From contig NZ_JADQTO010000005.1 of the NCBI RefSeq assembly GCF_015704865.1, positions 232,691 to 296,690 of the forward strand: 64,000 bases of DNA, given 5' to 3'. Each line of letters starts with the position of its first letter. The first letter of the stretch is position 1. Position numbers and translations under genes: made by a program. Shown one piece after another: positions 26,318 to 42,946 of the stretch. The DNA is from Actinoplanes aureus (lineage in GTDB: Bacteria; Actinomycetota; Actinomycetes; Mycobacteriales; Micromonosporaceae). Below the pieces are notes generated by a model. The model was not told the origin of the DNA and ran no database searches. It saw only the letters and a list, made by a program, of their open reading frames with translations.

Positions 26318-26494
26318 GTGACTGCATTTGCGCTGGTAGGAGAGTTGAAGGTAGGCGAAGATTACTCGTTGTAGTTTGTCTTCGCCAGAGGCGCTCGCCA
26401 CGCCGGAAACCGGTCGAACGGTCGAGTCGGCAAGAGTGCCGTGATTGGTACGCTTCCCGGCCAGTAGAACGGTGTAAGTGACTAGGGGGACTTG

Positions 26495-27313
26495 GTGACC
26501 GACTCGGCGACGCCGGCTTGGACCACTCTGCCGGCGCTGATGTATCACTCGGTCTCCACCGTCGGTGGACCCCTGGGTGATCTGGCGGTGCCGCCGGAGC
26601 GGCTGGCCGAGCAGCTGCATGCTCTGACCGCGGCCGGTTACCGGCTGGTCGGTCTCACCGAGGCGCTGGACCGGCTCAGCATGGGCAGCACCGAGAAGAT
26701 GGTCGCGGTGACCTTCGACGACGGCTACCGGGACTTCGTGACCGCCGGTGTGCCGGTGCTCCAGGCCGCCGGAGCCGGCGCCACCCTGTACGCGTCGGTC
26801 GGCCACCTCGGCGGCGGGCACGCGAACTGGCTGGGCGAGTGGGCTCCGGCGTTCGGGCCGATGATGTCCTGGGAGGAACTGGCCGAGGTCGCCACCGTTC
26901 CGGGCCTCGAGATCGGCAACCACAGCCTGATCCACCACCCGCTCGACGTGCTGGCTCCGGGCGAGCTGCGCGACCAGGTGGTGAGCAGCCACGATCAGCT
27001 GGAGCAGCGGCTGCAGCTGAAGGTCCGCTCGTTCGCGTATCCGCACGGGTACAACAGCCGCCTGGTGCGGGACGCGGTCGCGGCCTCCGGGCACGACAAC
27101 GCCACCGAGGTGGGCTACCGCGTGCACACGCCGAGCGAGCACCGGTTCGCCGTACCCCGCTTCCAGCCGACGCCGGACCACTCCGGCGCCGACCTGGTCG
27201 CCCTCGTCGAGGGCGCCGGTTCCCAGCTGGTGCCGCAGCTGAAGCGCCTGGCGCAGCCGGGCTGGCGGATGGTGCGCAAGATGGCACGCAAAGCGGGCCG
27301 GAACCTCACATGA
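26495..27313 (+). CDS. Polysaccharide deacetylase (NodB domain, carbohydrate esterase 4)
   Basis: 272 residues from GTG 26495, with AGGGGG just upstream. The NodB motifs are present: TFDDGYRDF (metal-binding Asp pair), IGNHSLIHHPLD (the H-x3-H-like metal motif), and FAYPHGYNSRLV. It has no signal peptide, which suggests a cytoplasmic or peripheral enzyme, or export by another route. Family members remove N- or O-acetyl groups from glycans. The C-terminus is a basic helix (MVRKMARKAGRN). The next gene, a GH26-like hydrolase, overlaps by four bases, so the two act together. Confidence 0.87.
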   Translation: MTDSATPAWTTLPALMYHSVSTVGGPLGDLAVPPERLAEQLHALTAAGYRLVGLTEALDRLSMGSTEKMVAVTFDDGYRDFVTAGVPVLQAAGAGATLYASVGHLGGGHANWLGEWAPAFGPMMSWEELAEVATVPGLEIGNHSLIHHPLDVLAPGELRDQVVSSHDQLEQRLQLKVRSFAYPHGYNSRLVRDAVAASGHDNATEVGYRVHTPSEHRFAVPRFQPTPDHSGADLVALVEGAGSQLVPQLKRLAQPGWRMVRKMARKAGRNLT

Positions 27314-28377
27314 GCCGTTCGCACCGCCGGGACACCCCGGTAAGCCGTCGCGGCCTGCTCGGGCTCGCCGCGCTCGCCGTGCTGCCGGTCGCCGGCTTCG
27401 GCTACAGCCAGCTGAAGTCGGACGGCACCGCGTCCGGAGCCAGCCCGTCCGCCTCCGGGCGGGTTCCGGTCTCCGAGCCGTCGGCCCGCCCGACTCCGGA
27501 GCCGTTCGCGAGCGCCGACCCGAAGGTGAAGCTGGGCGGGACGGTCCCGTTCGTGCCCGGCAAGGCGCTGTTCGGCTCCTACCTGGGACTGGACGGCCTG
27601 GAGTACGCGGAGGCGCTCGCGCTGCGTAAGAAGCAGCTCGGCCGTGGCCAGCGGATCGTGCACCTGTTCTACGCGTGGGAGGACGACCTGCCGTCGTCCA
27701 TCCCGTACCTGCCCAAGGGCTCGATCCCGATGGTGTCCTGGCGCGGCCCGAAGCACGAGACGATCCTCAGCGGCGACGCCGACGACTACATCAAGGCGTC
27801 CGCCCGGCGCCTGCGCGACCTGGACCGGCCGGTTCTGCTGCGCTGGGGCTGGGAGATGAACGGCGACTGGTACGCGTGGAGCGGCTTCAAGAACAACAAG
27901 AACGCGCAGGGGTACGTGGACTGCTACCACCACCTCTGGAAGATCTTCGAGAAGGAGGGGGCCGACCAGGTCTCCTGGGTGTGGAGCCCGAACTGGAACA
28001 ACAGCCCCAACGAGGCGTGGAACCGGATGGAGGCGTACTACCCCGGTGACGAGTACGTCGACTGGGTGGGCGTCTCCGGCTACAACCTCCACGACGAGGA
28101 GCCGGCCACCCTGTTCGATCCGGTCTACCAGAAGTATTCGCCGCACAAGCCGCTCATGATCACGGAGATCGGGTCGGTGGACCGCGGCGGCACCAGCAAG
28201 GCCGACTGGATCAAGGACTTCGCGGCGTACGTCGTGCAGCGCCCGGCCATCGGCGGCGTGGTCTGGTTCGACACCGACACGCACCCGAGCTGGCCGGAGC
28301 GCTGGCGCATCGACACCGATGCGACGTCGACGGCGGCGTACAAGGCGATGGTGCAGAACCCCCGGTTCAGCGGCTGA
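27310..28377 (+). CDS. Tat-exported GH26-like glycoside hydrolase
   Basis: 355 residues. The N-terminus has a twin-arginine signal (VSRRGLLGLAALAVLPVAG), then a Ser/Pro-rich linker (about 40-75) and a TIM-barrel domain like family 26 mannanases. The acid/base Glu is seen in LLRWGWEMNGDWY and the nucleophile Glu in LMITEIGSVDRGG; WSPNWNNSPN and YYPGDEYVDWVGVSGYN are further family marks. It is coupled to the deacetylase gene, suggesting cleavage of a deacetylated surface glycan. The true substrate is unknown. Confidence 0.85.
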   Translation: MSRSHRRDTPVSRRGLLGLAALAVLPVAGFGYSQLKSDGTASGASPSASGRVPVSEPSARPTPEPFASADPKVKLGGTVPFVPGKALFGSYLGLDGLEYAEALALRKKQLGRGQRIVHLFYAWEDDLPSSIPYLPKGSIPMVSWRGPKHETILSGDADDYIKASARRLRDLDRPVLLRWGWEMNGDWYAWSGFKNNKNAQGYVDCYHHLWKIFEKEGADQVSWVWSPNWNNSPNEAWNRMEAYYPGDEYVDWVGVSGYNLHDEEPATLFDPVYQKYSPHKPLMITEIGSVDRGGTSKADWIKDFAAYVVQRPAIGGVVWFDTDTHPSWPERWRIDTDATSTAAYKAMVQNPRFSG

Positions 28378-28391
28378 CCGCCGAACCGGGG
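28360..28391. terminator. Hairpin over the end of the GH26-like gene
   Basis: 14-bp stem with one mismatch (28360-28373 with 28378-28391) and a 4-base loop that includes the stop codon. It separates this gene from the convergent second GH26-like gene, whose stop is at 28402. Confidence 0.6.
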
Positions 28392-28401
28392 ATTCCCGGC
28401 G

Positions 28402-29679
28402 TCAGGACTTGTAGAGCGAGCGGTACACGTCCGACGACCCGCTGGTGTCGGCCATGCACTTCGGGTCGTCCGGGCGCAGGATGCTGGACTGGTTGGTCTT
28501 CCCGTCGCACCGCTGGAAGTACGCCTCGTACGCCAGGTACGGCGCGTGCTCGGCGAACCAGCCGTGCATCCAGCGGATGAACTCCGGGTTGTCCTTCTTG
28601 GCGTCGCTGAACGGCATCACGCCCCACTCGCCCACCGAGAACAGCTTCCCGTGCTGCTGGGCGAAGACGAACAGCCAGTTCAGGCCGTCCTCCCGGTCGG
28701 CGGTCGCGTCGAACTCCGCCTTCGTCGGCGACCACGGCCAATGGTCGTAGTTGTCGATGCCGATGATGTCGACGTACTCGTCACCGGGATAGCAGTTCGT
28801 GGTCAGCCCGCCGCACAGCTCGTCCGGGGTGTTGTGCGCGTTGATCGACCAGTCCAGGACGACCTTCGGATTCGTCGACCGGATGGCGTCGGCCGCGCGC
28901 CGGTAGCAGGCGATGTAGTCCTCGGTGTCGAGGGCGCGCCAGCCCATCGACTCCTCGTTCATCTCCCAGCCCAGCCGGACCACCGAGTCACCGCGGCCGT
29001 GCCGGACCATCAGCGAGCCGAAGTCCCGCCAGTGCTGGTCGTAGTCGCCGGCGGCGCAGTCGTCCACGAGTTCCTCGCGCTTGTTCGGCACCAGGCCCTG
29101 GGAGACGACCAGGACCCCGTCGAAGTTGTCGAAGAACTCGAACGTCCAGCCGGTGCCCCGGGTCATCGACTCGTAGCTGGTGCGGTCGGTGTAGGTCTGC
29201 GTCACGTTGCAGGGGCGGCCGCGGGCGGTGCAGAAGGTCCGCACCGATGCGGTGTTCAGGAGCGGGAAGCCGTTGACGCCGGACAGCCCGTACTCGCCGG
29301 GCCAGCTTCCGGCCGCCCGGGGCAGCGAGAACTGGGTGCGGGCCGAGCGTTTCCCGGCCTTCGTCGACGCGGCGGCGACCGCCGCCGCGGTGGGCATCAG
29401 GGTCGGCACGGGCGCGGGCGCGGCGGACGACGGCGCGGCGGAGACCACCGCGGACGCCGAGGGTGCCGGGGCGGTCGCGCTGGCCGCGACGGCGGACGGC
29501 TGCGTGGCGGCTGTCTCGGTGCCCGAGTCACCGCCCAGGCGGCTCGCCAGGCCGATCCCGGCGGCGAGCAGGACCGCTCCGGCGGCGGCAAGCAGGATCC
29601 GGCCGCGCCGGGACCGGGCCGCGGGTTTGGGCTCGGGCGGACCCGAGGGATTGTCGGCGGATGGTGGCGCGTCGGCCAT
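28402..29679 (-). CDS. Membrane-anchored GH26-like glycoside hydrolase
   Basis: 425 residues from ATG 29679 (GGAGA seven bases upstream). A Pro-rich cytoplasmic start is followed by one membrane segment (RRGRILLAAAGAVLLAAGIGLAS, about 25-47), a long Ala/Ser/Pro linker, and a hydrolase domain. VVRLGWEMNEESMGWRA holds the likely acid Glu and LFSVGEWGVMPFSD the likely nucleophile, with DWSINAHNT and CYPGDEYVDIIGIDNYD between. Six or more cysteines in the domain fit an extracellular location. It is a distant paralogue of the preceding Tat-exported protein and probably acts on the same surface glycan. Confidence 0.83.
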   Translation of the reverse strand: MADAPPSADNPSGPPEPKPAARSRRGRILLAAAGAVLLAAGIGLASRLGGDSGTETAATQPSAVAASATAPAPSASAVVSAAPSSAAPAPVPTLMPTAAAVAAASTKAGKRSARTQFSLPRAAGSWPGEYGLSGVNGFPLLNTASVRTFCTARGRPCNVTQTYTDRTSYESMTRGTGWTFEFFDNFDGVLVVSQGLVPNKREELVDDCAAGDYDQHWRDFGSLMVRHGRGDSVVRLGWEMNEESMGWRALDTEDYIACYRRAADAIRSTNPKVVLDWSINAHNTPDELCGGLTTNCYPGDEYVDIIGIDNYDHWPWSPTKAEFDATADREDGLNWLFVFAQQHGKLFSVGEWGVMPFSDAKKDNPEFIRWMHGWFAEHAPYLAYEAYFQRCDGKTNQSSILRPDDPKCMADTSGSSDVYRSLYKS

Positions 29680-29761
29680 TCGAGGTTCTCCGAAACGGTC
29701 GGCGGTCAACGGAAAGGACCGGCCACCGGGCGGCGGCCGGGAACGAGAAGGAGACCGCGGC

Positions 29762-30580
29762 CTACTGCGCGGCCGCGATGATGACGGTACGGAAAGCGGC
29801 CGTCTCGCCGTCCCGGAAGAGGTCCATGGTGACCCGCTCGGTGCCGGGCACACTGACCCGGCCGCTCCATTCACCGGCGGTGTCCGGGGTGAGGCGGTGT
29901 TCGCTGAGCTCGGCGCCCGCGGTGCCGCTAAGCACCAGCCGGTACGGTCCACGCCCGGCGTCCAGCCCGGTGGCGGTGACCTGCACCGATCGGTTGCCGT
30001 CGGCGTCCACCGCCCCCGGCGGGGTGGCCGACAGGGTGACGACCGCGGTGTCGTAGGTCCGCTCCGAGTCGGTGAACGACCACCAGCCGATCCCGCTGAT
30101 CAGCGCCAGCGCCAGGGTCAGCGGCAGCACGTCGCGGAACAGCCGGCGGCGGGAGAGCCGCCACTTCGAGCCCGGCCGCGGAGTCGCACCGGCGGCCGTG
30201 GAGATCCGGGTCGCCGACTCCGCCGCTCCGGCGGCCGGCGCGATCCGCGGCCGGGCCACCGCGACACCGGTCGCGATCAGTGCGACCGCGGCGGCGATCG
30301 ACAGCCAGCCGGCCTGATTCAGTGAGCCGCCGACCGCCCACAGGCCGAGACCGCCGAGCACGAGGACGGCCAGGCTCAGCGCCGGGATCAGCACCAGCCG
30401 TTCCACCACGCCGATGTCCAGCCGGCCGGGCCGGAACATCGCCTCGGTGATCGCGAGCCCCGGAAGGACGAACGCCAGCAGCAGGCCGCCCGGCACCGAG
30501 GCCGCCAGCGGTCCGGCCAGCACCGCGGCGCCGGAGGCGACCGTCACGCCGGCGAGGGCACCGGCACGGGCGGCGTTCAC
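29762..30580 (-). CDS. DUF1616-type membrane protein
   Basis: 272 residues from GTG 30580 with GGGGG four bases upstream. Four membrane segments, with LPGGLLLAFVLPGLAITEAMF-like and ERLVLIPALSLAVLVLGGLGLW segments matching DUF1616 proteins, are followed by a basic loop, one more membrane segment and an outer domain resembling an Ig-like fold (VVTLSATPPGAVDADGNRSVQV...GEWSGRVSVPGTERVTM). DUF1616 proteins often lie in polysaccharide loci. The start overlaps the stop of the giant membrane protein gene by four bases, so they are coupled. Confidence 0.7.
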   Translation of the reverse strand: MNAARAGALAGVTVASGAAVLAGPLAASVPGGLLLAFVLPGLAITEAMFRPGRLDIGVVERLVLIPALSLAVLVLGGLGLWAVGGSLNQAGWLSIAAAVALIATGVAVARPRIAPAAGAAESATRISTAAGATPRPGSKWRLSRRRLFRDVLPLTLALALISGIGWWSFTDSERTYDTAVVTLSATPPGAVDADGNRSVQVTATGLDAGRGPYRLVLSGTAGAELSEHRLTPDTAGEWSGRVSVPGTERVTMDLFRDGETAAFRTVIIAAAQ

Positions 30581-33500
30581 GAGACCCCCATCTGATAGAT
30601 CCGGACGTGGCCGTTGTCGTAGAGCCGCGAGATCCCGTTGATCCGGTCGAACTTGGTCAGGTCCGAGGCCGGGATCGGCTCGGTGAGCCGGCCCGCCATC
30701 GGGTCGTTCTGGAAGTACGCGTCGTTCGGCGGCAGGTCGTCGCTGAGCCGCTCGTCGACGACCAGGTACGCCAGGCCGAGGCCCCTGGCCCGGTCGTCCT
30801 GCTCGGCGGTCCACTGGTCGGCGTAGAAGAGCTCACCCACCTCACGAACCGGGTCCATCCGCCCGTACGTCGAGGAGAGCGCCACGGCGGTGATGTCGCC
30901 GCCGACCCGGGTGCCGTGCGGCAGCGTCGCCGCCTGCCAGTAGGCCGCGTCGACCCCGAAGGCGTCCACCGAGCGCTCGTACGCGGCCGGCAGGTACGGA
31001 CCGGGCAGCAGGGCCGAGACCGGCGGCCAGCCACCGGTCCGGGCGCCGATCATCAGCACGGTGATGAGCGCGGTACCCAGGTACACCTGGCCGGCGAGCC
31101 GGCGGCCGGTGGTGACCGACAGGCCGGGCGGCGGTGCCGATAGCCAGCGGCGGCCGCTCTCGTCCTTCGGGGGGATGAGCTGGACGGCGTACACGATCGC
31201 GATCGCCGCGATGATCGACATCGGGACGTAGGTGAAGGTGGAGAGCCGGCCGGCGATCTCCGGGCCGCCCGAACCGAGGAACCGCGCGCCGTTGCCGGCG
31301 AAGAACACGCCGCCGCCGACCAGGGCGGCCCAGCGCCAGGCGTCGCGGTCCTTACGCAGCAGCATGTCGCGGGCCACGGCCAGGAAGAGGATGAGCAGGC
31401 CGAGCAGGCCGGCGCCCTGCACCGCGAGCTGCACCACCGGCACCGGCGGGGTGACGGTGGCCGGCTCGCTGGAGTCGCCGAACATCTGGTTCAGCGAGGC
31501 CCGCAGGCTGTCGATCGGCGCCTCGAGGTACGCGACGACGTCCTGTGCCACGAACCCGATCCAGCAGGCCACCAAGGTGGCCGCCACGGCCGGAAGGGCC
31601 AGCGTGACCCACGGCCGCGGCTTCTCCAGTACGACCTCGGTCAGCGCCAGCAGACCCAGCGTCGCCACCAGGGCGAAAGCGGTCACGTGGTGGCTGACCG
31701 TGGTCATCGCTATGCCGGCGATGGCGATCGCGACGAACTTCCGGCCGCCACCGGTACGCCAGCGACGGTGTGCCCAGACGGTCAGCATGAAGAACGGGAG
31801 CGCGGCCGTCTGGTACAGGAACATCGAGTTGAAGAACAGGTAGTGCATTGCCGTCGCGTAGGTCACACAGGCCACACCGGCCATCGCCGGGGAGTTGCTG
31901 CCGCGCAGCACGGCGGCGAAGAGCATGCCCACGAAGATCAGGTGAGCGACGCCGGCCACGATCGTCCCCGACGCGGTCACCGACAGCCCGGTCAGCCCGG
32001 ACACCGCCGCACCCATCTCGGCCAGGCCGGGGAAGTGCACAGCAGGGGGGAGCGCCTGGTTCGGCCGGAACAGCTGGCCGGACTCGGTGATCAGCGTGGT
32101 GGCCATCCAGTGCTGGAGCTCGTCGGGGAACCGGAACTGGTCCGGGCTGTACATCCACTTGAGCATGTACTGGTTGGTGGCCAGGCCGATCACCAGCAGG
32201 AACGACTCGGCGACCCCGGCGAGGCGGCTGAGCAGCCGGAACACCACCGGGGTGAAGACGATGATCTGACCGATCCAGTACGCGGTCATCGCCCAGGTGG
32301 ACTCGTGGCGGCCGCCGCCGTAGGACAGCGCGACGAGCACCACACCGAGGCTGGAGAGGGCGAGCACCCAGGGCGCGTAGCCGAGGTCGACCGGCCCGGT
32401 GGGCTTCGGCTCCGGCTTCGGCGTGCTGGGCAGCCGGATGACGACGGTCTCATCGCCGACCGAGCGCCGGTCGACGGTGGCCCGCCCGGCGATGACCGGA
32501 GTCTTCTTCGGCGTCTGCGGCAGCCGGATGATGACGGTGTCGTCGGTCACCGGGCGCTTGCGCGGCGTACTCCCGGGGGTTTTCGGTTTGCCCGTCCCGG
32601 GCAACCGGATGATCACCGTGTCGTCGCCGACGGACCGCTTGCGGCCGGTGTCCTTGTTGTTGCCGGGCAGCCGGATGATCACCGTGTCGTCGCCGACGGG
32701 CCGCTTGCGGCCGGCCTTCTCGGTCGGCTTCAGGTCGCCGGGGACCTTGCTGATCACGACCGTGTCGTCGGCGGCCGGAGGCTTCTTGGGGCCCGTCTCC
32801 GGAAGCCGCATCATGACGGTGTCGTCCGGGCCCGGAGTCCGCTTCACGGTCTCGGCGGGCAGCCGGATGACGACGGTCTCCTCACCCACCGGGCGGGCCG
32901 GCTCGGGCTTGGCGGGCGGCTTCGTCCCGGCGGCCGGTCCCGGTTTCGCCGAGGGCTCCGGCCTGGCGGGCGGCGCGGCCTTGGGCGGCGTGGCGGGTCC
33001 GGCGGCCGGTGGCGCGACCTTGGCCGAGGCGGCGGCCTTGGCGGGCGGCGCGGGCGGACTCGGCGGCGTGGCGGCCTTGCCAGGCGGCGTGGCGGGCGCG
33101 GCGGGCCTCGCGGGCCCCGGCTGCGATGCGGGGGGCGCGCTCGGCCTGGCGGTTCCTGCCTGCGGTGCGGAAGGCGGGACAGGCTTGGCGGTTCCCGCTT
33201 GTGGTGCGGGCGGTGAGGTAGGCCTGGCGGTTCCTGCCTGCGGTGCGGGCGGCGAGGTAGGCCTCGCGGCTCCTGCCTGCGGCGTGGAGGGCGGGCTAGG
33301 CCTGGCGCTTCCTGCCTGCGGTGCGGAAGGCGGGACAGGCTTGGCGGTTCCTGCCTGTGGTGCGGGCGGTGCGCTGGGCCTCGCGGTTCCTGCCTGCGGT
33401 GCGGAAGGCGAGACAGGCCTCGCGGTTCCCGCCTGCGGCGTGGAGGGCGGGTTAGGCCTAGCGGTTCCTGCCTGGGGGGCGGGCGGCGCGCTGGGCTTTG

Positions 33501-34896
33501 CGGTTCCCGCCTGCGGTGCGGGGGGCGCGCTGGGATTCGCGGATCCCGCCTGCGGCGTGGCAGGCATGGCGGGCCTTGCTGGCCCCGGCTGTGGTCCCGA
33601 AGGGGCAGGCGGTGCCGGGGGAGCAGTAGGCCTGGCCGGCGGCGCGGGGGATGCCGGAGGCGCCGGCGGCGCGGCGGGTGCGGTGGCCTTGGACGCGGGC
33701 GGCGGTGCCACCTTGGCCGTAGCGGACGCCTTGGCAGCCGGCGCAGGCGGCGCGCTGGCGGGCGCCGGGCTCTTCGCGGGCGGCGTCGGGCCATGGGCGG
33801 GTGGCGCGCTGCTGGGCGCAGGGCCCTCAGCGGGCGGCTTGTGGCCCGGGACGACCGGGGGTGCGGGCGGGGCGTTCCCAGGGCCCTGCGGGGGCGGCGC
33901 GGGGCGCGGAGGCGTCTGCGCCGGCGGCGCACTGGCGGGGGAGGCCGGCGCTGAGGGCGGGGCGTTCTTCACCGGCGGGTTAGCACTCCCGGCGGGCGGG
34001 GCGTTGCCTGCCGGCGGCGGCGCGACCTTGGCCGTAGCCCTCGCGGCTGGCGCGGTTGCGGAAGATGGCGTGCCGTTCGCCGGCGACGTAGTACCGGCGG
34101 CGGGCGAAGCGGAGCCTGCGGCCGGCGGTGCAGGCCGCGCGCTTCCACCGGCCGGCGGTGCCGATGGCGCGGTGCCGTTCGCGGGCGGGTTTGTGCCCGG
34201 AGCACTCGGCGGAGCGCTGCTGGCCGGCGGTGCCGGTCGCGCGCTTCCGGTGGCGGGCGGTGCCGAGGGCGGGGTGCCGTTCGCGGGCGCGGGCGCGGGC
34301 GCGTTCGCGCGCGGAGCGTCGGGCGGAGTGCTGCCGGCGGGCGGTGCTGGTTGCATGCTTCCGGCGGCAGGCCGCGCGCTCCCGGTGGCCGGCGCCCTCG
34401 ACGATGGGGTGCCGTTCGCGGGCGGGTTCGCGCCCGGCCCACCGGGCGAAGTGCTGCGGGCCGGCGGTGCGGGTCGCGCGCTTCCGGCGGCAGGCCGCGC
34501 GCTCCCGGTAACCGGCGGAGCCGACGGCGCGGCCCCGTTCGCGGGCGGCATCGGCCTCGGAGCCCTCGGCGGAGTGCTTTCAGCCAGCGATGTGGGCCGC
34601 GGCTTCCCACCGGGCGGCGCGGTGCCGTTAGCCGGCGGCCTCGGGCCCGCACCGGCCGGCGCAGGCGGTGCGGTAGGCACCTTGGCGGCGCCCTTGGCGG
34701 TTGGCGCGGACGGCACGGCAGACCCCGGCTTCCCAGCCTGCTCAGTGCCTGATTTGTCGCGAGCTGTATCGGCCTCGTCGCTCTTGTCCGGTCCCATCCG
34801 GGTAAGTACGACGATCTCGTCGGGTCGCGGCTCCGCGGGCTTCGCGGTCGCTTCCTCCGGCGTCCGTTTCCGGTCGGACGTCGGCTGGTCCCCCAT
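30577..34896 (-). CDS. Giant Pro/Ala-rich polytopic membrane protein, GT-C-like
   Basis: 1439 residues from ATG 34896 with GGAGG eight bases upstream. Residues 1-60 are charged; about 65-630 are Pro/Ala-rich low complexity with 13-residue repeats such as SAPPAPQAGTARP; about 670-823 hold seven copies of a D[DE]TV[VIM][IM]RLP-like motif; from about 835 ten or more membrane segments follow, with FPDELQHW in the first outer loop, and a soluble C-terminal outer domain ends RIYQMGVS. The membrane half resembles GT-C-type glycosyltransferases using lipid-linked sugars, with the Asp/Glu in the first loop as candidate catalytic residue. The N-terminal half should be cytoplasmic and disordered. Confidence 0.72.
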   Translation of the reverse strand: MGDQPTSDRKRTPEEATAKPAEPRPDEIVVLTRMGPDKSDEADTARDKSGTEQAGKPGSAVPSAPTAKGAAKVPTAPPAPAGAGPRPPANGTAPPGGKPRPTSLAESTPPRAPRPMPPANGAAPSAPPVTGSARPAAGSARPAPPARSTSPGGPGANPPANGTPSSRAPATGSARPAAGSMQPAPPAGSTPPDAPRANAPAPAPANGTPPSAPPATGSARPAPPASSAPPSAPGTNPPANGTAPSAPPAGGSARPAPPAAGSASPAAGTTSPANGTPSSATAPAARATAKVAPPPAGNAPPAGSANPPVKNAPPSAPASPASAPPAQTPPRPAPPPQGPGNAPPAPPVVPGHKPPAEGPAPSSAPPAHGPTPPAKSPAPASAPPAPAAKASATAKVAPPPASKATAPAAPPAPPASPAPPARPTAPPAPPAPSGPQPGPARPAMPATPQAGSANPSAPPAPQAGTAKPSAPPAPQAGTARPNPPSTPQAGTARPVSPSAPQAGTARPSAPPAPQAGTAKPVPPSAPQAGSARPSPPSTPQAGAARPTSPPAPQAGTARPTSPPAPQAGTAKPVPPSAPQAGTARPSAPPASQPGPARPAAPATPPGKAATPPSPPAPPAKAAASAKVAPPAAGPATPPKAAPPARPEPSAKPGPAAGTKPPAKPEPARPVGEETVVIRLPAETVKRTPGPDDTVMMRLPETGPKKPPAADDTVVISKVPGDLKPTEKAGRKRPVGDDTVIIRLPGNNKDTGRKRSVGDDTVIIRLPGTGKPKTPGSTPRKRPVTDDTVIIRLPQTPKKTPVIAGRATVDRRSVGDETVVIRLPSTPKPEPKPTGPVDLGYAPWVLALSSLGVVLVALSYGGGRHESTWAMTAYWIGQIIVFTPVVFRLLSRLAGVAESFLLVIGLATNQYMLKWMYSPDQFRFPDELQHWMATTLITESGQLFRPNQALPPAVHFPGLAEMGAAVSGLTGLSVTASGTIVAGVAHLIFVGMLFAAVLRGSNSPAMAGVACVTYATAMHYLFFNSMFLYQTAALPFFMLTVWAHRRWRTGGGRKFVAIAIAGIAMTTVSHHVTAFALVATLGLLALTEVVLEKPRPWVTLALPAVAATLVACWIGFVAQDVVAYLEAPIDSLRASLNQMFGDSSEPATVTPPVPVVQLAVQGAGLLGLLILFLAVARDMLLRKDRDAWRWAALVGGGVFFAGNGARFLGSGGPEIAGRLSTFTYVPMSIIAAIAIVYAVQLIPPKDESGRRWLSAPPPGLSVTTGRRLAGQVYLGTALITVLMIGARTGGWPPVSALLPGPYLPAAYERSVDAFGVDAAYWQAATLPHGTRVGGDITAVALSSTYGRMDPVREVGELFYADQWTAEQDDRARGLGLAYLVVDERLSDDLPPNDAYFQNDPMAGRLTEPIPASDLTKFDRINGISRLYDNGHVRIYQMGVS
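32428..32883. repeat. Seven repeated D[DE]TV-IRLP motif segments
   Basis: Coding on the minus strand for EETVVIRLP, DDTVMMRLP, DDTVVISKVP, DDTVIIRLPG (twice), DDTVIIRLPQ and DETVVIRLP, spaced about 19-30 residues by basic Lys/Pro/Gly linkers such as GRKRPV. A diverged extra copy (DEIVVLTRM) lies near the N-terminus. Confidence 0.85.
33110..33570. repeat. 39-bp minisatellite coding for Pro/Ala repeats
   Basis: About eleven to twelve in-frame units of 39 bp, each coding for 13 residues of the type [SV][AP]P[PS]APQAGTA[RK]P. Units differ by scattered substitutions. Beyond 33570 the composition stays the same but the periodicity becomes irregular. Confidence 0.8.
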
Positions 34897-34935
34897 GAAA
34901 ACAGCCTCCACAGCTACTTCGGGTCGAAAGGTGAC

Positions 34936-34967
34936 GAGGCGGGCGCCACCCACCGAGTGCCCGCCTC
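34936..34967 (-). terminator. Candidate hairpin between glycosyltransferase and giant gene
   Basis: Arms GAGGCGGGC (34936-34944) and GCCCGCCTC (34959-34967) pair over nine bases. It lies in the 138-bp gap downstream of the glycosyltransferase stop (35035) and upstream of the giant gene start, so it may end or attenuate the upstream transcript. Confidence 0.4.
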
Positions 34968-35034
34968 CCTCACCCCCGAAGCCGAGGGCGCCGGTTGGCG
35001 GGCGTTTTACCCGGTGAATGGTACGCCGTCATGA

Positions 35035-36378
35035 TCAGCGGGCGGTTCCCCGGACCTTCGCCCGGGCGGCACGGCGTCCCCGCAGGTACGCACGTGGTCC
35101 GGCAATCATCCCTCGCCGGTTCGCCGAAAGAAGCTCGCGGGGGAAGTCGTCCTGAAGTGTGGAGACCCGCAGGCTGTCGGAGCCGGTCAGATCGCGCAGC
35201 GCGGTGGGTGCCAGCTTCATCAGTTTGAAGATCAGGCCCGGCTGGGCGAGAAGCAGGCTGGTGTACGCGGCGGTCAGCCCCGTCCCGTACCCGACCATCT
35301 GCTTGTGCAGGCCCTCGAAGTCGGGCCGGTGGTAGTGGTGGGTCACCGCGGTCGGCTGGTACACGATCGTCCCGCCGGTGAGCAGCACCTGCGTGAAGGC
35401 GAGCGTATCCTCCGAGCCCATGGCCGGCGTGCCGGCGCCGAGCGCGTTGTCCCAGCCGCCGATCCGCTCGATCACGCCGGGCCGGAACGTCATGTTCGCG
35501 CCGGTGCCGAACGGCGGCAGCGGGTAGAGCGGGCTCTGGATGTGCGCGGTGTGCGGGCCGAACGTGTCCGGCTTGAAACCGCGGCCCTTGCTGTGCCCGC
35601 CGAACTGCTCGAACCACAGCTGCGCCTTGGTCTCCAGCTCGGCCGGGACGATCACGCCGGAGACCACGTCGGCCTCGGGGTGCGCGGCCAGCGCCCGGGC
35701 CACCTCGGCCAGCCAGTGCGGGTCGGCCGTCTCGTCGTCGTCGATCCACGCCAGGATCTGCCCGGGTGCCGCGGCGACCGCCGCGTTGCGGGCGAACGAC
35801 AGGCCGGCCTTCGGCTCACGCAGGTATTCGACCGGGCCCCGGCGGGCCGCCGCGCGGACCACCTCGGCGGTGGCGTCGGTCACCGGTGCGTTGTCGACCA
35901 CCAGGATCCGGAAGACCGGGTACTGCATGGCGAAGAGGCTGTCCAGGCAGCGGGCCAGCGCGCCGGGCCGCTCCCGGGTGCAGACCACCACGGTGATCTC
36001 CGGGGCGGAGGCGAGGACCGCGCGGCGGCTGGCGAGGAACTCCGGCTCGACGTGCGGGACGTATCCGTGCACCGGGACGGGTGCGCCGCGCAGCCGCGAG
36101 CTGACCGCCTCGCCCAGCTCGGTGTCGATCGCCGCGGCCAGCGCATACGGGGCGAGGCCCTGCTCGGGCACATCGACCAGCACGGTGCCGAGCGGCTCGG
36201 TGAAGAGCCGGACCAGGACGTGGGCCTGCAGCACGCGACGGCCGTCCGGGGCGATCCCGGCGACCGGGGGCAGCGGCTGGGACAGGTCGAGGTCGAGCAC
36301 GACCGCAGGGCGGATCTTGCTCTCGTCGTCCAGGTTCGGGGCGCCGGGGAGACCGGCACCGTTCACACCGGTGGTCAC
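35035..36378 (-). CDS. Family 2 glycosyltransferase with extra N-terminal domain
   Basis: 447 residues from GTG 36378. The first 125 residues form an unassigned domain (RPAVVLDLDLSQPLPPVAG...VLVRLFTEPLGTVLVDVP). Then a GT-A fold: ITVVVCTRERPGALARCLDSL, LREPKAGLSFARNAAV, ILAWIDDDETADPHW (the DxD-like metal site) and FGTGANMTFRPGVIERIGGWDNALG. A hydrophobic stretch near LLLAQPGLIFKLM may hold it at the membrane. It probably adds a sugar to a surface glycan. The start overlaps the previous glycosyltransferase stop (GTGA). Confidence 0.9.
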   Translation of the reverse strand: MTTGVNGAGLPGAPNLDDESKIRPAVVLDLDLSQPLPPVAGIAPDGRRVLQAHVLVRLFTEPLGTVLVDVPEQGLAPYALAAAIDTELGEAVSSRLRGAPVPVHGYVPHVEPEFLASRRAVLASAPEITVVVCTRERPGALARCLDSLFAMQYPVFRILVVDNAPVTDATAEVVRAAARRGPVEYLREPKAGLSFARNAAVAAAPGQILAWIDDDETADPHWLAEVARALAAHPEADVVSGVIVPAELETKAQLWFEQFGGHSKGRGFKPDTFGPHTAHIQSPLYPLPPFGTGANMTFRPGVIERIGGWDNALGAGTPAMGSEDTLAFTQVLLTGGTIVYQPTAVTHHYHRPDFEGLHKQMVGYGTGLTAAYTSLLLAQPGLIFKLMKLAPTALRDLTGSDSLRVSTLQDDFPRELLSANRRGMIAGPRAYLRGRRAARAKVRGTAR

Positions 36379-37343
36379 TGAGCGGCCTCCGACTCGTTGC
36401 GCCGGCCGGCGCGCTTCTTGCTGACGGTTTCGACGACGCCACCCACACCGGCGGCGGCGGCACCGGCGATGACGCCGCCCGCACGCAGCAGGTGGTCGGC
36501 GCCCTTGCCGGTGGCGGCCGCGCCGACGTGGCGGACCACGGCCTTCGGCAGCGACCAGATGTAGCTCTTCTCGGCGCCCAGGGCGTCGTTGCTGTTCTCC
36601 TCGTGCAGGCTGCCCATCTGGACCTTGCCCCGGCCCTCGGCGTAGCAGCGCTTCACGAAGAACTTGAAGCTGGCCCGCTCGGCGGGCACCTCGTGCTGGA
36701 TGACCGCGCCCGGCACGTACACCCAGTGGCCGTTGTCGGAGACCTCACTCATGCGCAGGCACAGATCGGTGTCCTCGGGCCGGTTGCGGTCGCCGAGCTT
36801 GCCGAAGCCGACCCGGAATCCGCCCGCGGCCACGAACACGTCGCGGCGCACGATCATGTTCGCCGACCAGACGTTGCGGATCGGCGCGGTCTCGGTGGGC
36901 ATGCCGGTGTACGAGCCACCGACCGCCCAGAGGAACTCACCCGGCATCCAGCGTGGTGCTTCGCCCTCCCAGGCCGGCTGGATGAACCCACCGGTGCCGA
37001 TCACTTCCGGGTCGGCGAACGGCTCGATCTGCCGCTCGAGCCAGTCGGGCTCGGCGATGATGTCGTCGTCCAGGAAGGCGATCAGCGGCGTCTGCGCGTA
37101 GAAGGCGCCGGTGTTGCGGTTGCCCGAGACGCCCTGGGCGTACTCGTTCTGGAGCACCGTGATGCCCGGCAGCTCACGCTTGATCCGGTCGAACATCGCC
37201 GGGTTGTGGTCCACGACCACGACGATCTCTTCAGGGGTGTGCGTCTGGGCGTGGGCGCACTCGAGGGTACGGGTGAGGTAGTCCCAGCGCACTTCCGAGT
37301 ACGTGGGAATGACGATCGTCGTGGGCAGAGCGGTGTGGTTCAC
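36375..37343 (-). CDS. Family 2 glycosyltransferase
   Basis: 322 residues from GTG 37343, with AGGAG about ten bases upstream. TTIVIPTYSEVRWDYLTRTLECA starts the GT-A fold, IAFLDDDIIAEPDWLE carries the metal site, and NVWSANMIVRRDVFVAAGGF and NRPEDTDLCLRMSE the acceptor side. The C-terminal part has Gly/Ala-rich hydrophobic stretches and a basic tail. Coupled to the next glycosyltransferase by a four-base overlap, so the pair may extend the same chain. Confidence 0.9.
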   Translation of the reverse strand: MNHTALPTTIVIPTYSEVRWDYLTRTLECAHAQTHTPEEIVVVVDHNPAMFDRIKRELPGITVLQNEYAQGVSGNRNTGAFYAQTPLIAFLDDDIIAEPDWLERQIEPFADPEVIGTGGFIQPAWEGEAPRWMPGEFLWAVGGSYTGMPTETAPIRNVWSANMIVRRDVFVAAGGFRVGFGKLGDRNRPEDTDLCLRMSEVSDNGHWVYVPGAVIQHEVPAERASFKFFVKRCYAEGRGKVQMGSLHEENSNDALGAEKSYIWSLPKAVVRHVGAAATGKGADHLLRAGGVIAGAAAAGVGGVVETVSKKRAGRRNESEAAQ

Positions 37344-37439
37344 GAGGGGAGTGCTCCTGTGGGGCGGTAAGGGGCGCGCTCAGTGAACCTCTGTCAACCT
37401 GGCGCCGGGCGCTGAGGCGCTGGCCGTGCTGAGAAAGGT

Positions 37440-38648
37440 TCAGTCGTCGAGCGACGCGCGGCTGCGCAGCTTGCTGATGTCCTGGGTGGTGCCGCTGCCG
37501 ATGTCGTCGAGCGCGCGGGCACGCAGGGCTCGCAGATCCCGGGTCGCGGTGCCGAGGTCGTCCAGGCGAGCGCTGCGCACCTTGTTGATGTCGTCGGTAC
37601 GCCGAACGCCGACCTCGTGCGGCCGGTTCGCCCGGTTGAGCTGGCCGGTGTCGCGGCGCGGGTCGGCGGGGTGCCGGACCCCGACCGGGTGGGCGGCGAC
37701 GACGACCGGCGCCGGCGCGTTCACGACCGGGACCGGAGCGTGCACCTGCTCGAGGCCGCGCGGCTCGGCGAACTGGGGCACGACCGGGGCGACCGGGGCG
37801 GCGACGGTCGGCAGCACCGGAGCGGTCTGCGTGGTGGGCAGCTGCAGGCCGTCGACGAACGGCGCGATGCCGGCGCCACGGCGCTTACGCATCCGGCCGT
37901 ACTCACTGAAGATCGTGCGGAGCACCCGGAAGCCGTCACGGAAGGTGTTCAGGTTGCTCTCGCCGAAGATCCGCTCGTGCTCGGTGCTGCCGACCTCGCC
38001 GACCTTCAGCTTCTCCGCGACCGCCCGGATGTTGATCATCGTCTCGATCTCGAAGCCGTCGCCCCACAGCTTGCTGCCGTCCGACGGCTGGGGCAGCTTG
38101 ACGTCCGGCAGGGCCAGCGCCGGCACGACGTTGCGCCAGAAGGCGTTGTAGCCGTAGCAGAGGTCGGTGAAGTGCGTCCGGAACAGGACGTTGACCACCA
38201 GGTTGAGGCCGTCGTTGCCGAGCTTGCGCAGCGCGGTGATGTCGTGGCTGTGCCCGCCGTGGCTGAACCGGGAGCCCTTCACGAAGTGGTCACCGTTGAT
38301 CAGCTTGTCGACGAAGAGTGGGATCTCGGCCGGGTCGGTCGAGCCGTCGGCGTCGATCATCACGATGATGTCGCCGGTGCAGGCGGCGAAGCCGCAGGCG
38401 AGCGCGTTGCCCTTGCCCTTACGCGTCTGCTGCACGATCACGGCGTCCGGCCGCAGCTCACGGGCCACTTCGACGGTGCGGTCGGTGGAGCCGCCATCGA
38501 CCACGATCACCTCGGTGATCAGGGACGGGAGCTTCGCGAACACGTGCGGCAGGTTCCGCTCTTCGTTCAGCGTGGGAATCACGACGCTCACGGTCGGTGA
38601 TTGCGGGCGGTTACTGTCGGTGTGCGTATTCAAGTGCGAAAGCTCCAT
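37440..38648 (-). CDS. Family 2 glycosyltransferase with repetitive C-terminal tail
   Basis: 402 residues from ATG 38648 (GGAAGGGA five bases upstream). Residues 15-265 form a dolichyl-phosphate mannose synthase-like GT-A domain: VSVVIPTLNEERNLPHVF, VIVVDGGSTDRT, RKGKGNALACGF, IVMIDADGSTDP. Instead of membrane segments, the last 130 residues are Pro/Val-rich then Arg/Asp-rich, with repeated R-[AS]-[RA]-x-L-D-D units (SARLDDLGTATR, RARALDDIGSG, RSRASLDD). No family is known for the tail. A good promoter lies upstream, so this is the first gene of the leftward glycosyltransferase run. Confidence 0.88.
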   Translation of the reverse strand: MELSHLNTHTDSNRPQSPTVSVVIPTLNEERNLPHVFAKLPSLITEVIVVDGGSTDRTVEVARELRPDAVIVQQTRKGKGNALACGFAACTGDIIVMIDADGSTDPAEIPLFVDKLINGDHFVKGSRFSHGGHSHDITALRKLGNDGLNLVVNVLFRTHFTDLCYGYNAFWRNVVPALALPDVKLPQPSDGSKLWGDGFEIETMINIRAVAEKLKVGEVGSTEHERIFGESNLNTFRDGFRVLRTIFSEYGRMRKRRGAGIAPFVDGLQLPTTQTAPVLPTVAAPVAPVVPQFAEPRGLEQVHAPVPVVNAPAPVVVAAHPVGVRHPADPRRDTGQLNRANRPHEVGVRRTDDINKVRSARLDDLGTATRDLRALRARALDDIGSGTTQDISKLRSRASLDD

Positions 38649-38733
38649 GTCGGTCCCTTCCGGGGGGCGGCAATGCGACTTGTCGCGCGATTTCCCGAAG
38701 GTGGGACCGCACAGCCGCTCGCTTCAGGAAAAC

Positions 38734-38761
38734 AACCTAGCAAACGATTACGTAGCGTCAA
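38734..38761 (-). promoter_or_regulatory. Promoter of the leftward glycosyltransferase run
   Basis: On the minus strand TTGACG (38761-38756) and TAGGTT (38739-38734) are separated by 16 bases, matching the housekeeping TTGAC/TAnnnT pattern of actinobacteria. The start codon is about 80 bases downstream, leaving an untranslated leader. Confidence 0.55.
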
Positions 38762-39143
38762 CAGGTCGTGAGAACGACTCAGGTCACAGCTGCCATAAAG
38801 CTGACAGTTCCCGTATGGGGAAGCAAGTACTTCCAGGTAGCCGGGTGGCGGCCTAGGCCGCATCGTTACCTTGCGTAACGGACATTGGCCATACCAGTGG
38901 ATCTCTCGGGAGAGTCTCCGACGAATATGTAAATGAGTAGTGGATCACCGTAAATCCGGACAAGATCCGCAAAGCGCGGCCACCACTTTACGAACTCACT
39001 TGTTTACGGAACGTTAATTCTGGGTGTCCTCAAGTGATCACCCTGTTGCTGGGCGTGAGGTCGACCGCCTGGCTACGGTTGATAGGTGGGAAGAGTTCGC
39101 CGAACGTCCGTAGCCTCCTCAGCCGTTCGCCGTTGGTGAAGCG
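38762..39143. other. A/T-richer intergenic region
   Basis: About 380 bp between the glycosyltransferase promoter and the Cys/His miniprotein. It includes a small GTTAC/GTAAC hairpin (38865-38879) and several A/T-rich tracts suited to promoters. No reading frame with a ribosome site was seen on either strand. Confidence 0.4.
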
Positions 39144-39299
39144 ATGACGACCGAGGCCGGGCTGTGCGTTTGTGGACATTCGCATCAGGCACACGAGCAT
39201 TACCGCTCGGGTAGCGACTGCGCGCTGTGCGAGCCGGGGCGGTGCGCCCGGTTCCGGAGGGCGGGCCGATGGTGGCGCCGCCTGCTGAGCCGGCGCTGA
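39144..39299 (+). CDS. 51-residue Cys/His-rich miniprotein
   Basis: ATG 39144 to TGA 39297-39299. The order of likely ligands is C-x-C-G-H-x-x-x-A-H-x-H-Y-R, then C-x-x-C-x-x-x-x-C-x-x-F, followed by a basic, Trp/Arg-rich tail (RRAGRWWRRLLSRR). Such a layout is typical of small zinc-binding proteins, and similar miniproteins are known to the annotator from other actinobacteria without assigned function. The ribosome site (TTGGTGAAG) is modest. It precedes the sulfotransferase gene by 105 bp on the same strand. Confidence 0.7.
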   Translation: MTTEAGLCVCGHSHQAHEHYRSGSDCALCEPGRCARFRRAGRWWRRLLSRR

Positions 39300-39404
39300 C
39301 CAGCCCGCGGGCAAGAGAGATGTCCATCACTTGGGCCGCCGGGCTGCGAAATCCTAGTGAATCTGTAGGCTAACTCTCAATTCGAGCGAACCTAGGGGGC
39401 ACCG

Positions 39405-40340
39405 ATGGCTCTTCCCGACTTCCTCATCGCCGGCGTCCCCAAAGCCGGCACCACGGCACTGCACGCCGCGCTGGTGGGCCACCCGGAGCTCTTCCTCCCG
39501 CCGGTCAAGGAGCCGAAGTTCTTCCTCTCCGACGGGCCGCCGCCGGCCGTCGGCGGCCCCGGTGACGTGCAGACCTACCAGGAACACGTCTGGCGCCGCG
39601 ACGAATACGAGGCCCTCTTCGACCCCGCGCCGCCGGGCGCGCTGCGGGGCGAGGCCACACCCTTCTACCTGTACGACCTGGCCGCCCACGACCGCATGAA
39701 GGCGCTGGTCCCGAACGCCAAACTGGTCATCCTGCTGCGTGACCCGGTGGACCGGGCGCACTCCAACTGGACCCACCTCTGGGTGGCCGGTCTGGAGGAG
39801 GAGGCCGACTTCCTGGCCGCCTGCCGGGCCGAGGAACAGCGCAGGGCCGCGCACTGGGCCGACTTCTGGCACTACATCGGGCTCGGTCTCTACGGCCGCC
39901 AGCTCGAGCACCTCTATCGACGCTTCCCCCGCGAGCAGGTGCTTCTGCTACGCTACCGCGACCTCAAGGACAGTCCAGGTCAGACACTCGACCGGGTCTG
40001 CTCCTTCCTGGGCGTACGGACCGGTGTGCTCACCTCGATCCCGAGGGAGAACGTGAACCGGCACTACGTCGAGGACACTCGCGTCAACCGGATGTTGCGC
40101 GGCCTGCTCCGGGCCGGCGGCAACGTCGGGCACCGGTTCCCGGTTCCGCTGCGGCTGGCCGCGCGTGGGCCGCTGCTCACGCTGCTGCACCGCAAGCAGG
40201 GCAACCGTCCGGTGACCACGCCGGAGGAACGGGCCGCGCTGCTGCCGTACTTCGCCGAGGACATCGCCCTGCTGGGCGAGGTGACCGGGGAGAACTACGA
40301 CGACTGGCTCAGCCTGGACCGACACGCCCGCGCCCGGTAA
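39405..40340 (+). CDS. PAPS-dependent sulfotransferase
   Basis: 311 residues, with AGGGGG six bases before the ATG. The 5'-phosphosulfate loop is [18 protein letters not shown] near the N-terminus, and the 3'-phosphate motif is [43 protein letters not shown] is the usual later block. The enzyme would transfer sulfate from PAPS to a carbohydrate or lipid hydroxyl, in the cytosol. It is located in the glycan locus, suggesting a sulfated surface glycan; no sulfate-activation genes are in the window. Confidence 0.92.
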
Positions 40341-40405
40341 AGCCCACATTCCCGATAGATGATGCAAACTTGACGGGTCCGTCGCCGCAACCCCCGGGAG
40401 CTGCT

Positions 40406-41317
40406 TTGACCACTGGAACCACGGCCTTGCCCCTGCCGCGCTGGGAAGACTCCACCGTGGTGGTCGAACCGCCGGGGTCGGAGCCCGGGGCGTGGTCCGG
40501 TGCGCCCAGCACGATCCTCGCGGACGGCCACATCTATCTCGCGTACCGCCTGCGTCTGCCGATCGGGGCCGGTCGCGGCATCGCCAACGTGGTGGCCCGC
40601 TCCGCCGACGGACTCACCTTCACGGTGGTCGCCGAGGTGGGCAAGGACGCCTTCGGCGCCGAGTCGCTGGAGCGGCCCGCGCTGGTGCGTACGCCGGAGG
40701 GCACCTGGCGGCTGTACGTCAGCGCGGCCACCCCCGGCACCAAGCACTGGCGGGTCGACCTGCTCGAGGCGGACACCCCGGAAGGCCTGGCCACCGCCGC
40801 CGCCCGCACGGTGCTTGCCGGTGACGAGTCGGCCGGCGTCAAGGACCCGGTGCTGCACCACGACGAGCACGGCTGGCACCTGTGGGCCTCGGTGCACCCG
40901 CTGGAGTCCTGGGACGACGCCGACCGGATGACCACCGAGTACGCGACCAGCCCGGACGGCGTGCACTGGACCTGGCGGCGTACCGCGCTGGCCGGCCGAC
41001 CGGGCCGCTGGGACGCTCGCGGCGTGCGGGTCTCCTCGGTCCGGGTGGACGGGGACGAGATCACCGTCTCGTACGACGGCCGGGCCACGGCGGGGGAGAA
41101 CTGGGAGGAGCGCACCGGGGTGGCCCGGGGCGTACGCCTGCCGGACGGCTCCTTCGGCGAGCTGACCGCGGAGGACCGCGAGCCGATCGGCAGCCCGCAC
41201 CCGCCCAGCGGCCTGCGCTACCTGAGCCTGGTCGAGCTGCCGGACGGCCGGCAGCGCCTGTACTACGAGTCGACCCGGGCCGACGGGGCCCACGACCTGC
41301 GTACCGAGCTGGCCTGA
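40406..41317 (+). CDS. Glycosidase-like beta-propeller protein (GH43/GH32-like fold)
   Basis: 303 residues from TTG 40406 (GGGAGC six bases upstream); TTG 40370 would add 12 residues but lacks a ribosome site. The sequence has repeated blade-like units: [109 protein letters not shown]. This resembles five-bladed glycoside hydrolases, with acidic residues in LERPALV and KDPVL as candidates, but the family and catalytic set are uncertain. No signal peptide. Confidence 0.6.
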
Positions 41318-41714: not shown

Positions 41715-41980
41715 AAAACGGTTGAATCCAACAGCGAGCGCTCTGAGTGTTTGCGGCCGGTTAAATCGTCGCGGGAATTGACGCCCACCTCATCCGTTCG
41801 GCCGATGTGAATGCCTATTCGGTGTCGTGTTCTCACCCGGACATCCCGTCCCTCCGGGCCGTCCGGTCTCCACCTCTACGGGTCACCACCGGCACGCGGT
41901 CGCGTTTGTGCCCCGATGGCCTGGGTAACGGCAGGTCGGGGGGTCCGCGGGCGGCCTACCGGGTACGCGGAGGAGGCGAG

Positions 41981-42946
41981 ATGCGGACGCTGGGCGGGCG
42001 TTATCAACTGGTGAACCGCATCGGACTGGGCGGCATGTCCGAGGTATGGCGCGGACACGACCAGGTGCTGGACCGGCCGGTGGCCGTGAAGATCATGGCG
42101 CCGGCGGTGGAGGGCACCCTCGGCGAGGTCGGGGTGGAACTGGTCCGGGCCGAGGCTCGCTCGGCCGCCCGGCTGGCGCATCCCAACGTGGCCGGGGTGC
42201 ACGACTTCGGCACCTCGCCGGCGCCGGGACGCGACGTCCCGTACATCGTGATGGAGCTGGTCGAGGGCCAGACCCTCAGCCGGCACCTCGCCGCCGGCCG
42301 GCTGGACTGGCGCATCGGCGTACGCATCTGCGCCGAGGTCGCGGCCGCGCTCGCCGCGGCCCACGCCGAGCAGGTGGTGCATCGCGACATCAAACCGGCG
42401 AACATCATGCTTACCCCGGCCGGCGCCAAGGTCCTCGACTTCGGCATCGCCGCCGCCGTCGGCTCGCCCGACCCGGACCCGGACGGCCCGGTGATGGGCA
42501 CCCCCGCCTACATCGCCCCGGAACGCTTCGAAGGCATGCCGGCCACCCCGGCGACCGACATGTTCGCCCTCGGCACGCTCATCTATCACTGCATCTCCGG
42601 CCGGCTGCCGTGGAGCGCCCGCACCAACACCGAACTCGTCGTCGCCGAGCGCTTCGAAGACCCGGAACCCCTCCCGCACATCGACGGCCTGCCACCCGAG
42701 GTGCTCGACCTCTGCTCCCGCTGCCTCGCGAAGGACCCGGCCGACCGGCCGACCGCCCTGGTAGCCGCGCTGCTGCTGGCCGAAGCGGTCGACGCCCGCG
42801 TCTACGTCCCGCTCGCCGACCTCGAACCCGATCTGCAGCGCGCACCGGCGATCTCCCCATGGGATGAGGCCGCGGCCTCCGCGCCCACCTCGGCGGCACC
42901 GCGCGCTGCGGCCCCTTCCCGGGGAGGCCGGCACCGGGCAGGCTGA
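41981..42946 (+). CDS. Soluble Ser/Thr protein kinase (PknB-like)
   Basis: 321 residues from ATG 41981 with a strong GGAGGAGG site. A complete eukaryotic-type kinase: glycine loop RIGLGGMSEVWRG, VAVKIM lysine, catalytic loop VVHRDIKPANIM, LDFGIA, and TPAYIAPERFEG. The domain ends near residue 270, and the remaining 50 residues are Ala/Pro-rich without a membrane segment or PASTA repeats, so it is a cytoplasmic kinase. It stands alone; the inverted repeat begins 21 bp after its stop. Confidence 0.93.
   Translation: MRTLGGRYQLVNRIGLGGMSEVWRGHDQVLDRPVAVKIMAPAVEGTLGEVGVELVRAEARSAARLAHPNVAGVHDFGTSPAPGRDVPYIVMELVEGQTLSRHLAAGRLDWRIGVRICAEVAAALAAAHAEQVVHRDIKPANIMLTPAGAKVLDFGIAAAVGSPDPDPDGPVMGTPAYIAPERFEGMPATPATDMFALGTLIYHCISGRLPWSARTNTELVVAERFEDPEPLPHIDGLPPEVLDLCSRCLAKDPADRPTALVAALLLAEAVDARVYVPLADLEPDLQRAPAISPWDEAAASAPTSAAPRAAAPSRGGRHRAG

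Follow-up and report, generated by a model that had tools for sequence, protein, structure and literature searches.

A probable second Imp-type surface-glycan gene cluster in Actinoplanes aureus, divided between two loci

Introduction

A 64,000-nucleotide stretch of the Actinoplanes aureus genome (contig NZ_JADQTO010000005.1; hereafter the window, whose positions serve as coordinates) contains, at 26495-41317, a gene cluster that probably specifies a second Imp-type system for a polyprenyl-linked extracellular glycan, split over two loci and supplemented by a clade-specific sulfotransferase. It is a real, conserved surface-glycan cluster whose kind has a studied relative: the imp cluster of Actinoplanes missouriensis makes the sporangium-matrix polysaccharide (PMC12691653, PMC13390465), imp mutants have either no visible sporangium matrix or abnormal sporangia, and ImpE has been proposed to fill the polymerase role (PMC12691653). 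What is new here is the split arrangement, a fusion of the flippase Wzx with a further domain, the constant pairing of a GT-C membrane protein with a DUF1616 protein, and the clade-specific sulfotransferase.

A conserved core related to imp

The core comprises genes for three family 2 glycosyltransferases (GT2c, GT2b and GT2a), the GT-C protein (GTC) and a DUF1616-like protein. When the gene order of 20-kb neighbourhoods from Micromonosporaceae was compared, these five genes proved to be collinear in Actinoplanes relatives, Planosporangium, Rugosimonospora, Dactylosporangium, Longispora and Actinocatenispora, the exception being one outgroup locus (G043) which has neither GT2a nor GT2b. The genes flanking the cluster in the window do not stand beside the outgroup clusters, save for one weak kinase match. 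A preliminary description, drawn up from the sequence of the window, had proposed a single conserved surface-glycan cluster and had held that scattering of its genes in relatives would speak against it. As the core is collinear while the flanking genes differ, scattering is refuted, and the retention of core order across genera means that the grouping is more than chance, which bears out the proposal. A deacetylase and the hydrolase GH26A accompany the core as a pair, on the other side of GT2c in Actinocatenispora-type loci. The sulfotransferase and a propeller-like gene are confined to the Actinoplanes clade and Spirilliplanes, and a second hydrolase gene, GH26B, is narrower still, occurring in the ~75-82% clade only.

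A paralogue of GTC (24-31% identity, E down to 1e-35) together with a homologue of GT2c (~60%) is widespread in the genus in the form of imp-type loci, and the window genome carries both systems, its imp copy being locus L065. One of the genomes compared, which we take to be that of A. missouriensis, has the imp paralogue only, and identity of the window cluster with the published A. missouriensis wps-1, gsf or imp cluster was rejected. The paralogue locus of this genome follows the published imp order (PMC12691653), with genes of the GT4-like, flippase-like, small-membrane-protein, GT-C and GT2 types. The gene downstream of that for ImpE encodes a protein similar to the DUF1616 protein.

Some neighbourhoods are arranged differently. 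In part of the Actinoplanes clade, FolD (methylenetetrahydrofolate dehydrogenase/cyclohydrolase) is encoded between DUF1616 and GH26A (L049:3969-4991, L050:14871-15893, L053:4065-4934); being a housekeeping enzyme and limited to that clade, it was set aside as a probable insertion rather than a member of the system. A distant cluster in the metagenome-assembled genome of a bog actinomycete (L108) has GH26-like genes flanking both sides of GT2c-GT2b-GT2a-GTC-DUF1616-Wzx, which suggests that the link of GH26 with the core is old. A further cluster (L187, G229:C2:182500-202400) has a Wzx (42% identical), GT2c, GT2a and a deacetylase, with no GT-C match in the stretch.

The GT-C protein and the DUF1616-like protein

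The GTC gene product had been described as a giant membrane protein of 1439 residues. This does not hold, as ~840 N-terminal residues (~60%) are Pro/Ala-rich disorder and the membrane part amounts to ~598 residues. The open frames of GTC orthologues range from 617 to 1708 amino acids because the length of the tail varies (27-1108 amino acids, depending on the start codon chosen), while the membrane domain stays at ~600. The tail repeats the sequence DDTVIIRLP (32429-32691, minus strand), a motif which occurs three to five times in most close relatives; searched as a DNA pattern it gives three exact matches genome-wide, all within the GTC gene, and the reversed control gives none. With a kinase gene nearby, these repeats possibly constitute a phospho-threonine/FHA docking site.

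To judge from its structural model (mean predicted local distance difference test score, pLDDT, 82.5), the membrane domain belongs to the GT-C enzymes and resembles the oligosaccharyltransferases (OSTs) in fold. Foldseek returned STT3/OST as the best match (E 4.5e-8), and VIA gave Z of ~21 to STT3/AglB (21.4 to 8agb_A). STT3/AglB/PglB ranked first, followed by protein mannosyltransferases, ArnT and arabinosyltransferases (AftA). The C-terminal part of the predicted model also matches the C-terminal domain of AglB (125 residues at 2.9 A to 3vu0_C, Z 12.2). A sequence search of solved structures with a GTC profile gave no matches. Asp84-Glu85, in the first outer loop, is invariant in 40 sequences, none of which has an STT3 Pfam match, and the WWDYG motif is absent both from the GTC protein and from the conserved columns, so that GTC is not classed as a true oligosaccharyltransferase.

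The DUF1616-like protein has four N-terminal transmembrane helices, a fifth transmembrane helix and then an extracytoplasmic beta-sandwich (model pLDDT 87). The window member scores 21 bits with PF07760, against a gathering threshold of 31.6, and 30 of the 31 orthologues match at E 0.1, the best at 1e-22. Alignment with ImpD by hhalign gives a modest match (E 7e-6, probability 84%, 21% identity over 178 columns), and the two proteins have the same architecture and the same place directly downstream of the GT-C gene. A fold search with the model returned small beta-sandwich domains alone and was uninformative. DUF1616, a domain-of-unknown-function family, is here consistently paired with a GT-C enzyme of predicted OST-like fold, which gives it a testable role.

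A flippase gene unlinked from the cluster and fused

Genes were called by hidden Markov model (HMM) search of the main open reading frames (ORFs) of the window, from ~150 amino acids upward, against Pfam. These scans returned neither Wzx, Wzy, Wza nor ABC-2 genes, no O-antigen polymerase or ligase (Wzy-type) match and no GtrA-type small flippase match, in agreement with the preliminary statement that known capsule export genes do not occur. In the outgroup genera, a Wzx gene lies directly after the DUF1616 gene in all loci (8/8), and of 20 GTC relatives that are more distant, 19 have a Wzx-type gene nearby. The outgroup Wzx is related to ImpC (~31% identity, E 3.5e-28). In the Actinoplanes clade and Spirilliplanes the slot after DUF1616 is taken by GH26B, FolD or an acyltransferase-like gene.

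A whole-genome search with the outgroup flippase as query found an unlinked Wzx orthologue (48-56% identity) in 32 of 32 cluster-bearing members of the genus as against 17 of 30 members without the cluster (Fisher p 1.4e-5, ignoring shared ancestry). The orthologue of the window genome (G000:C32:1376-2611, 51% identical; locus L169:89-2710, minus strand) continues in frame into a domain of acyltransferase-like type (residues 461-873), and such a fusion is present in all 18 unlinked copies whose neighbourhood was read, with CorA and WYL regulator genes adjoining in nearly all. In most outgroup clusters this domain is a separate gene near GH26A. It has no Pfam or PDB relative, and its name is our assumption from a histidine-containing motif. 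In the tree, the unlinked copies form a single clade nested within the cluster-linked ones (support 0.97), a pattern most simply explained by a single move in which Wzx was also fused. As the fusion is kept in genomes that do not have the cluster, its ties cannot be to this cluster only.

It had been argued that, no exporter being present, the giant protein may be the membrane step of a new pathway. This argument fails because the linked Wzx of the relatives and the unlinked gene explain the absent exporter, and GTC is itself an ImpE homologue. The wider significance is that a single surface-glycan pathway can be split, its flippase being encoded far from the cluster and joined there with a second component of the pathway, and that a cluster without a flippase does not mean a pathway without one.

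Glycosyltransferases, hydrolases and modifying enzymes

The nearest NCBIfam models of the three family 2 enzymes are MftF for GT2a (97 bits, cut-off 280), AglG for GT2b (NF041394; 179 bits, E 1e-52, cut-off 440) and AglJ for GT2c (129 bits, cut-off 325); the closest solved structure to GT2c is dolichol-phosphate mannose synthase (E 1.6e-19). The deacetylase is nearest to PgaB, with a score far under the cut-off of that model. GH26A has as its closest solved structure the clostridial lichenase-type Endoglucanase H (E 2e-26), and both catalytic glutamates (E182, E286) are invariant in the GH26A and GH26B sets.

The preliminary description had called the glycan sulfated. The presence of a sulfotransferase of the type that uses 3'-phosphoadenosine 5'-phosphosulfate (PAPS) is confirmed: its 5'- and 3'-phosphate-binding motifs, PKAGTT and RDPVDRAHS, are invariant in 14 orthologues, as is KEPKFF, and its closest solved structure is 3rnl (E 2e-36), with heparan-sulfate 3-O-sulfotransferase at E 4e-15. 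The genome also has, away from the cluster, a gene for adenosine 5'-phosphosulfate (APS) kinase, the enzyme that makes PAPS. The enzyme is clade-specific and not part of the core, and from its sequence sulfation of the product is plausible. Sulfated glycans in actinomycetes have been proposed and are chemically not demonstrated (PMC13390465), and the cluster adds a second candidate besides wps-1. The APS kinase gene lies at G000:C77:276945-288804 (loci L145, L003, L007), where genes for two other sulfotransferases and a flippase-like protein accompany it within 12 kb, a stretch reminiscent of A. missouriensis wps-1 with its own PAPS supply.

The sulfotransferase is accompanied by the propeller-like protein, for which there are 16 orthologues (74-90% identical). 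It has no Pfam or NCBIfam match and weak profile matches to anhydro-galactosidases (E 0.06-0.2); the gene reported as a glycosidase-like propeller exists, then, and the propeller call is unproven.

Layout of the locus

All ten genes named in the preliminary description (deacetylase, two GH26, DUF1616-like, GT-C, three GT2, sulfotransferase, propeller-like) are present (Table 1), HMM search confirming the deacetylase, the two GH26, the three GT2 and the sulfotransferase genes and, through its orthologues, the DUF1616-like gene. They lie side by side, as had been said, but by their layout form three transcription units rather than one: deacetylase-GH26A on the plus strand, six minus-strand genes (GT2c, GT2b, GT2a, GTC, DUF1616-like, GH26B) and sulfotransferase-propeller-like on the plus strand. 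Overlaps of four bases join deacetylase and GH26A (ATGA), GT2b and GT2a, and GTC and DUF1616 (GTGA). Between the divergent GT2c and sulfotransferase genes is a 756-base intergenic stretch of lower G+C (38649-39404), which likely holds the promoters of both. Rfam and tRNA scans of the window gave no matches. The kinase gene adjoins the cluster in most Actinoplanes-clade genomes and is not an orthologous neighbour in the outgroup clusters; outside the cluster, at 47708-49918, is a gene for a GH9 cellulase with CBM4_9 and an Ig-like domain.

Table 1. Genes and domains of the cluster and the adjoining kinase gene, in window positions
Feature	Positions	Strand	Evidence and remarks
Polysaccharide deacetylase	26492-27313	+	PF01522 E 1.1e-18; TTG or GTG start; no signal peptide seen
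GH26A, exported GH26 hydrolase, twin-arginine N-terminus	27310-28377	+	PF02156 E 1e-14
GH26B, GH26 hydrolase with N-terminal membrane anchor, clade-restricted	28402-29679	-	PF02156 E 1e-4
DUF1616-like, ImpD-like protein	29762-30580	-	PF07760 via orthologues; GTGA overlap with GTC
GTC membrane domain, ImpE homologue, ~598 residues	30577-32373	-	GT-C fold (model)
Disordered Pro/Ala/Ser-rich N-terminal tail of GTC	32374-34896	-	Sequence
GT2a glycosyltransferase, ~120 aa N-terminal domain	35035-36378	-	PF00535 E 1e-24
GT2b glycosyltransferase, nearest model haloarchaeal AglG	36375-37343	-	PF00535 E 1e-26
GT2c, polyprenyl-phosphate sugar synthase-like, ImpG homologue, nearest model AglJ	37440-38648	-	
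PAPS-type sulfotransferase	39405-40340	+	PF00685 E 1e-19
Glycosidase-like (propeller-like) protein, without signal peptide	40370-41317	+	Weak profile matches
Ser/Thr protein kinase	41807-42946	+	PF00069 E 4e-43; adjoins cluster

Proposed pathway and alternative readings

The homology and gene order of the core, the GT-C fold of the model, the intact catalytic motifs and the unlinked flippase orthologue with its fusion were shown by computation. From these we infer the order of the enzymes, the sugars, sulfation of the product, the role of DUF1616 and the service of the unlinked flippase to this cluster, as follows. GT2c would charge polyprenyl phosphate with a sugar, which GT2b and GT2a would extend on the lipid, and the sulfotransferase and deacetylase would modify the glycan in the cytoplasm. 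The Wzx-acyltransferase-like fusion encoded elsewhere would turn the glycan outward, and on the outer face GTC, with DUF1616 as its small membrane partner, would transfer or polymerise it, so that by analogy with the proposal for ImpE it may take the role of Wzy. The GH26 enzymes would then trim or release the product.

Several observations weigh against this pathway. The cluster is absent from the presumed A. missouriensis genome. The Wzx proteins match Pfam weakly (1e-4), their assignment resting on the homology with ImpC (31%), and the Wzx fusion also occurs in the 17 of 30 genus members that do not have the cluster, in a comparison whose Fisher test takes no account of shared ancestry. The match of DUF1616 with ImpD is modest, and the sulfotransferase, the propeller-like protein and GH26B fall outside the conserved core.

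A more specific proposal, which we regard as tentative and distinctly less probable than the Imp-type pathway in general, is that the core corresponds in bacteria to the haloarchaeal Agl route: AglJ/AglG-like GT2 enzymes would build the glycan on polyprenyl monophosphate, and the OST-fold GTC, without WWDYG and with an obligate DUF1616, would add it in one piece to a polysaccharide chain that is being extended. If true, this would make GTC a hitherto unrecognised kind of polymerase across actinobacteria.

The same likenesses would accommodate protein glycosylation, with an OST-like GTC moving a lipid-linked oligosaccharide onto exported proteins, much as the Agl pathway does in haloarchaea. 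The first rank of STT3/AglB/PglB for the GTC model, C-terminal domain included, fits with this, as do the proximity of GT2c to AglJ and of GT2b to AglG and the first description of the DUF1616 family from archaea. However, GTC has neither WWDYG nor an STT3 Pfam match, the AglJ and AglG scores are far under the curated cut-offs, the deacetylase and GH26 companions suit a polysaccharide better, and the product of the paralogous imp cluster is a matrix polysaccharide (PMC12691653), all of which leave protein glycosylation an unlikely account. Somewhat less probable again is a modification system in which GTC uses the polyprenyl-phosphate sugar of GT2c to attach side chains to a wall polymer that other loci produce, the remaining genes serving for decoration, along the lines of the GtrA-type arrangement proposed for gsf. 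A polyprenyl-phosphate sugar synthase-like enzyme beside a GT-C protein with an Asp-Glu dyad is the usual pair for extracytoplasmic side-chain addition, but the scanned ORFs of the cluster include no GtrA-type protein, the relatives have a Wzx-type flippase instead, and GT2a, GT2b and the hydrolases point to a multi-sugar unit. That the giant protein does the work of a flippase and carries the glycan through the membrane unaided, as the lack of flippase and ABC-2 genes in the Pfam scans of the window might suggest, is very improbable given the flippase gene directly downstream in the outgroups, the unlinked orthologue that all of the checked genus members with the cluster possess, the GT-C fold of the GTC model and the fact that the size of the giant is that of a variable disordered tail.

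Comparison with known systems

The Imp-type reading can be set against five known systems. With STT3, AglB and PglB (GT66), GTC shares the GT-C fold and the OST-type C-terminal domain of its model, and it differs from them in the lack of WWDYG and of an STT3 Pfam match and in the position of its Asp-Glu dyad in the first loop. The haloarchaeal Agl pathway provides the nearest models for GT2c (AglJ) and GT2b (AglG) and, in AglB/STT3, the nearest fold for GTC, whereas the scores here are under the AglJ and AglG cut-offs, WWDYG is missing and the companions are GH26, deacetylase and sulfotransferase genes. The GtrA-type gsf cluster of A. missouriensis (PMC13390465) likewise has GT2 enzymes and membrane proteins, but no GtrA-type gene is seen among the scanned ORFs here and the stealth, dehydrogenase and acyltransferase 3 genes of gsf are unmatched. 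In wps-1 of A. missouriensis, the product of which is proposed to be a sulfated polysaccharide, GH26 and sulfotransferase genes are again found within one surface-polysaccharide cluster; wps-1 differs in having linked Wzx, Wzy and Wzz, GT26, a methyltransferase and two other sulfotransferases, with no GT-C/DUF1616 pair described (PMC13390465). Compared with imp, GT2a and GT2b replace three GT4 enzymes, deacetylase, GH26, sulfotransferase and propeller-like genes have been added, and the flippase is unlinked and fused, whereas the two systems have in common a homologous GT-C protein (ImpE), a homologous GT2 enzyme (ImpG), the flippase type (ImpC), the same E-D order and, with a modest match, a small membrane protein of similar kind (ImpD).

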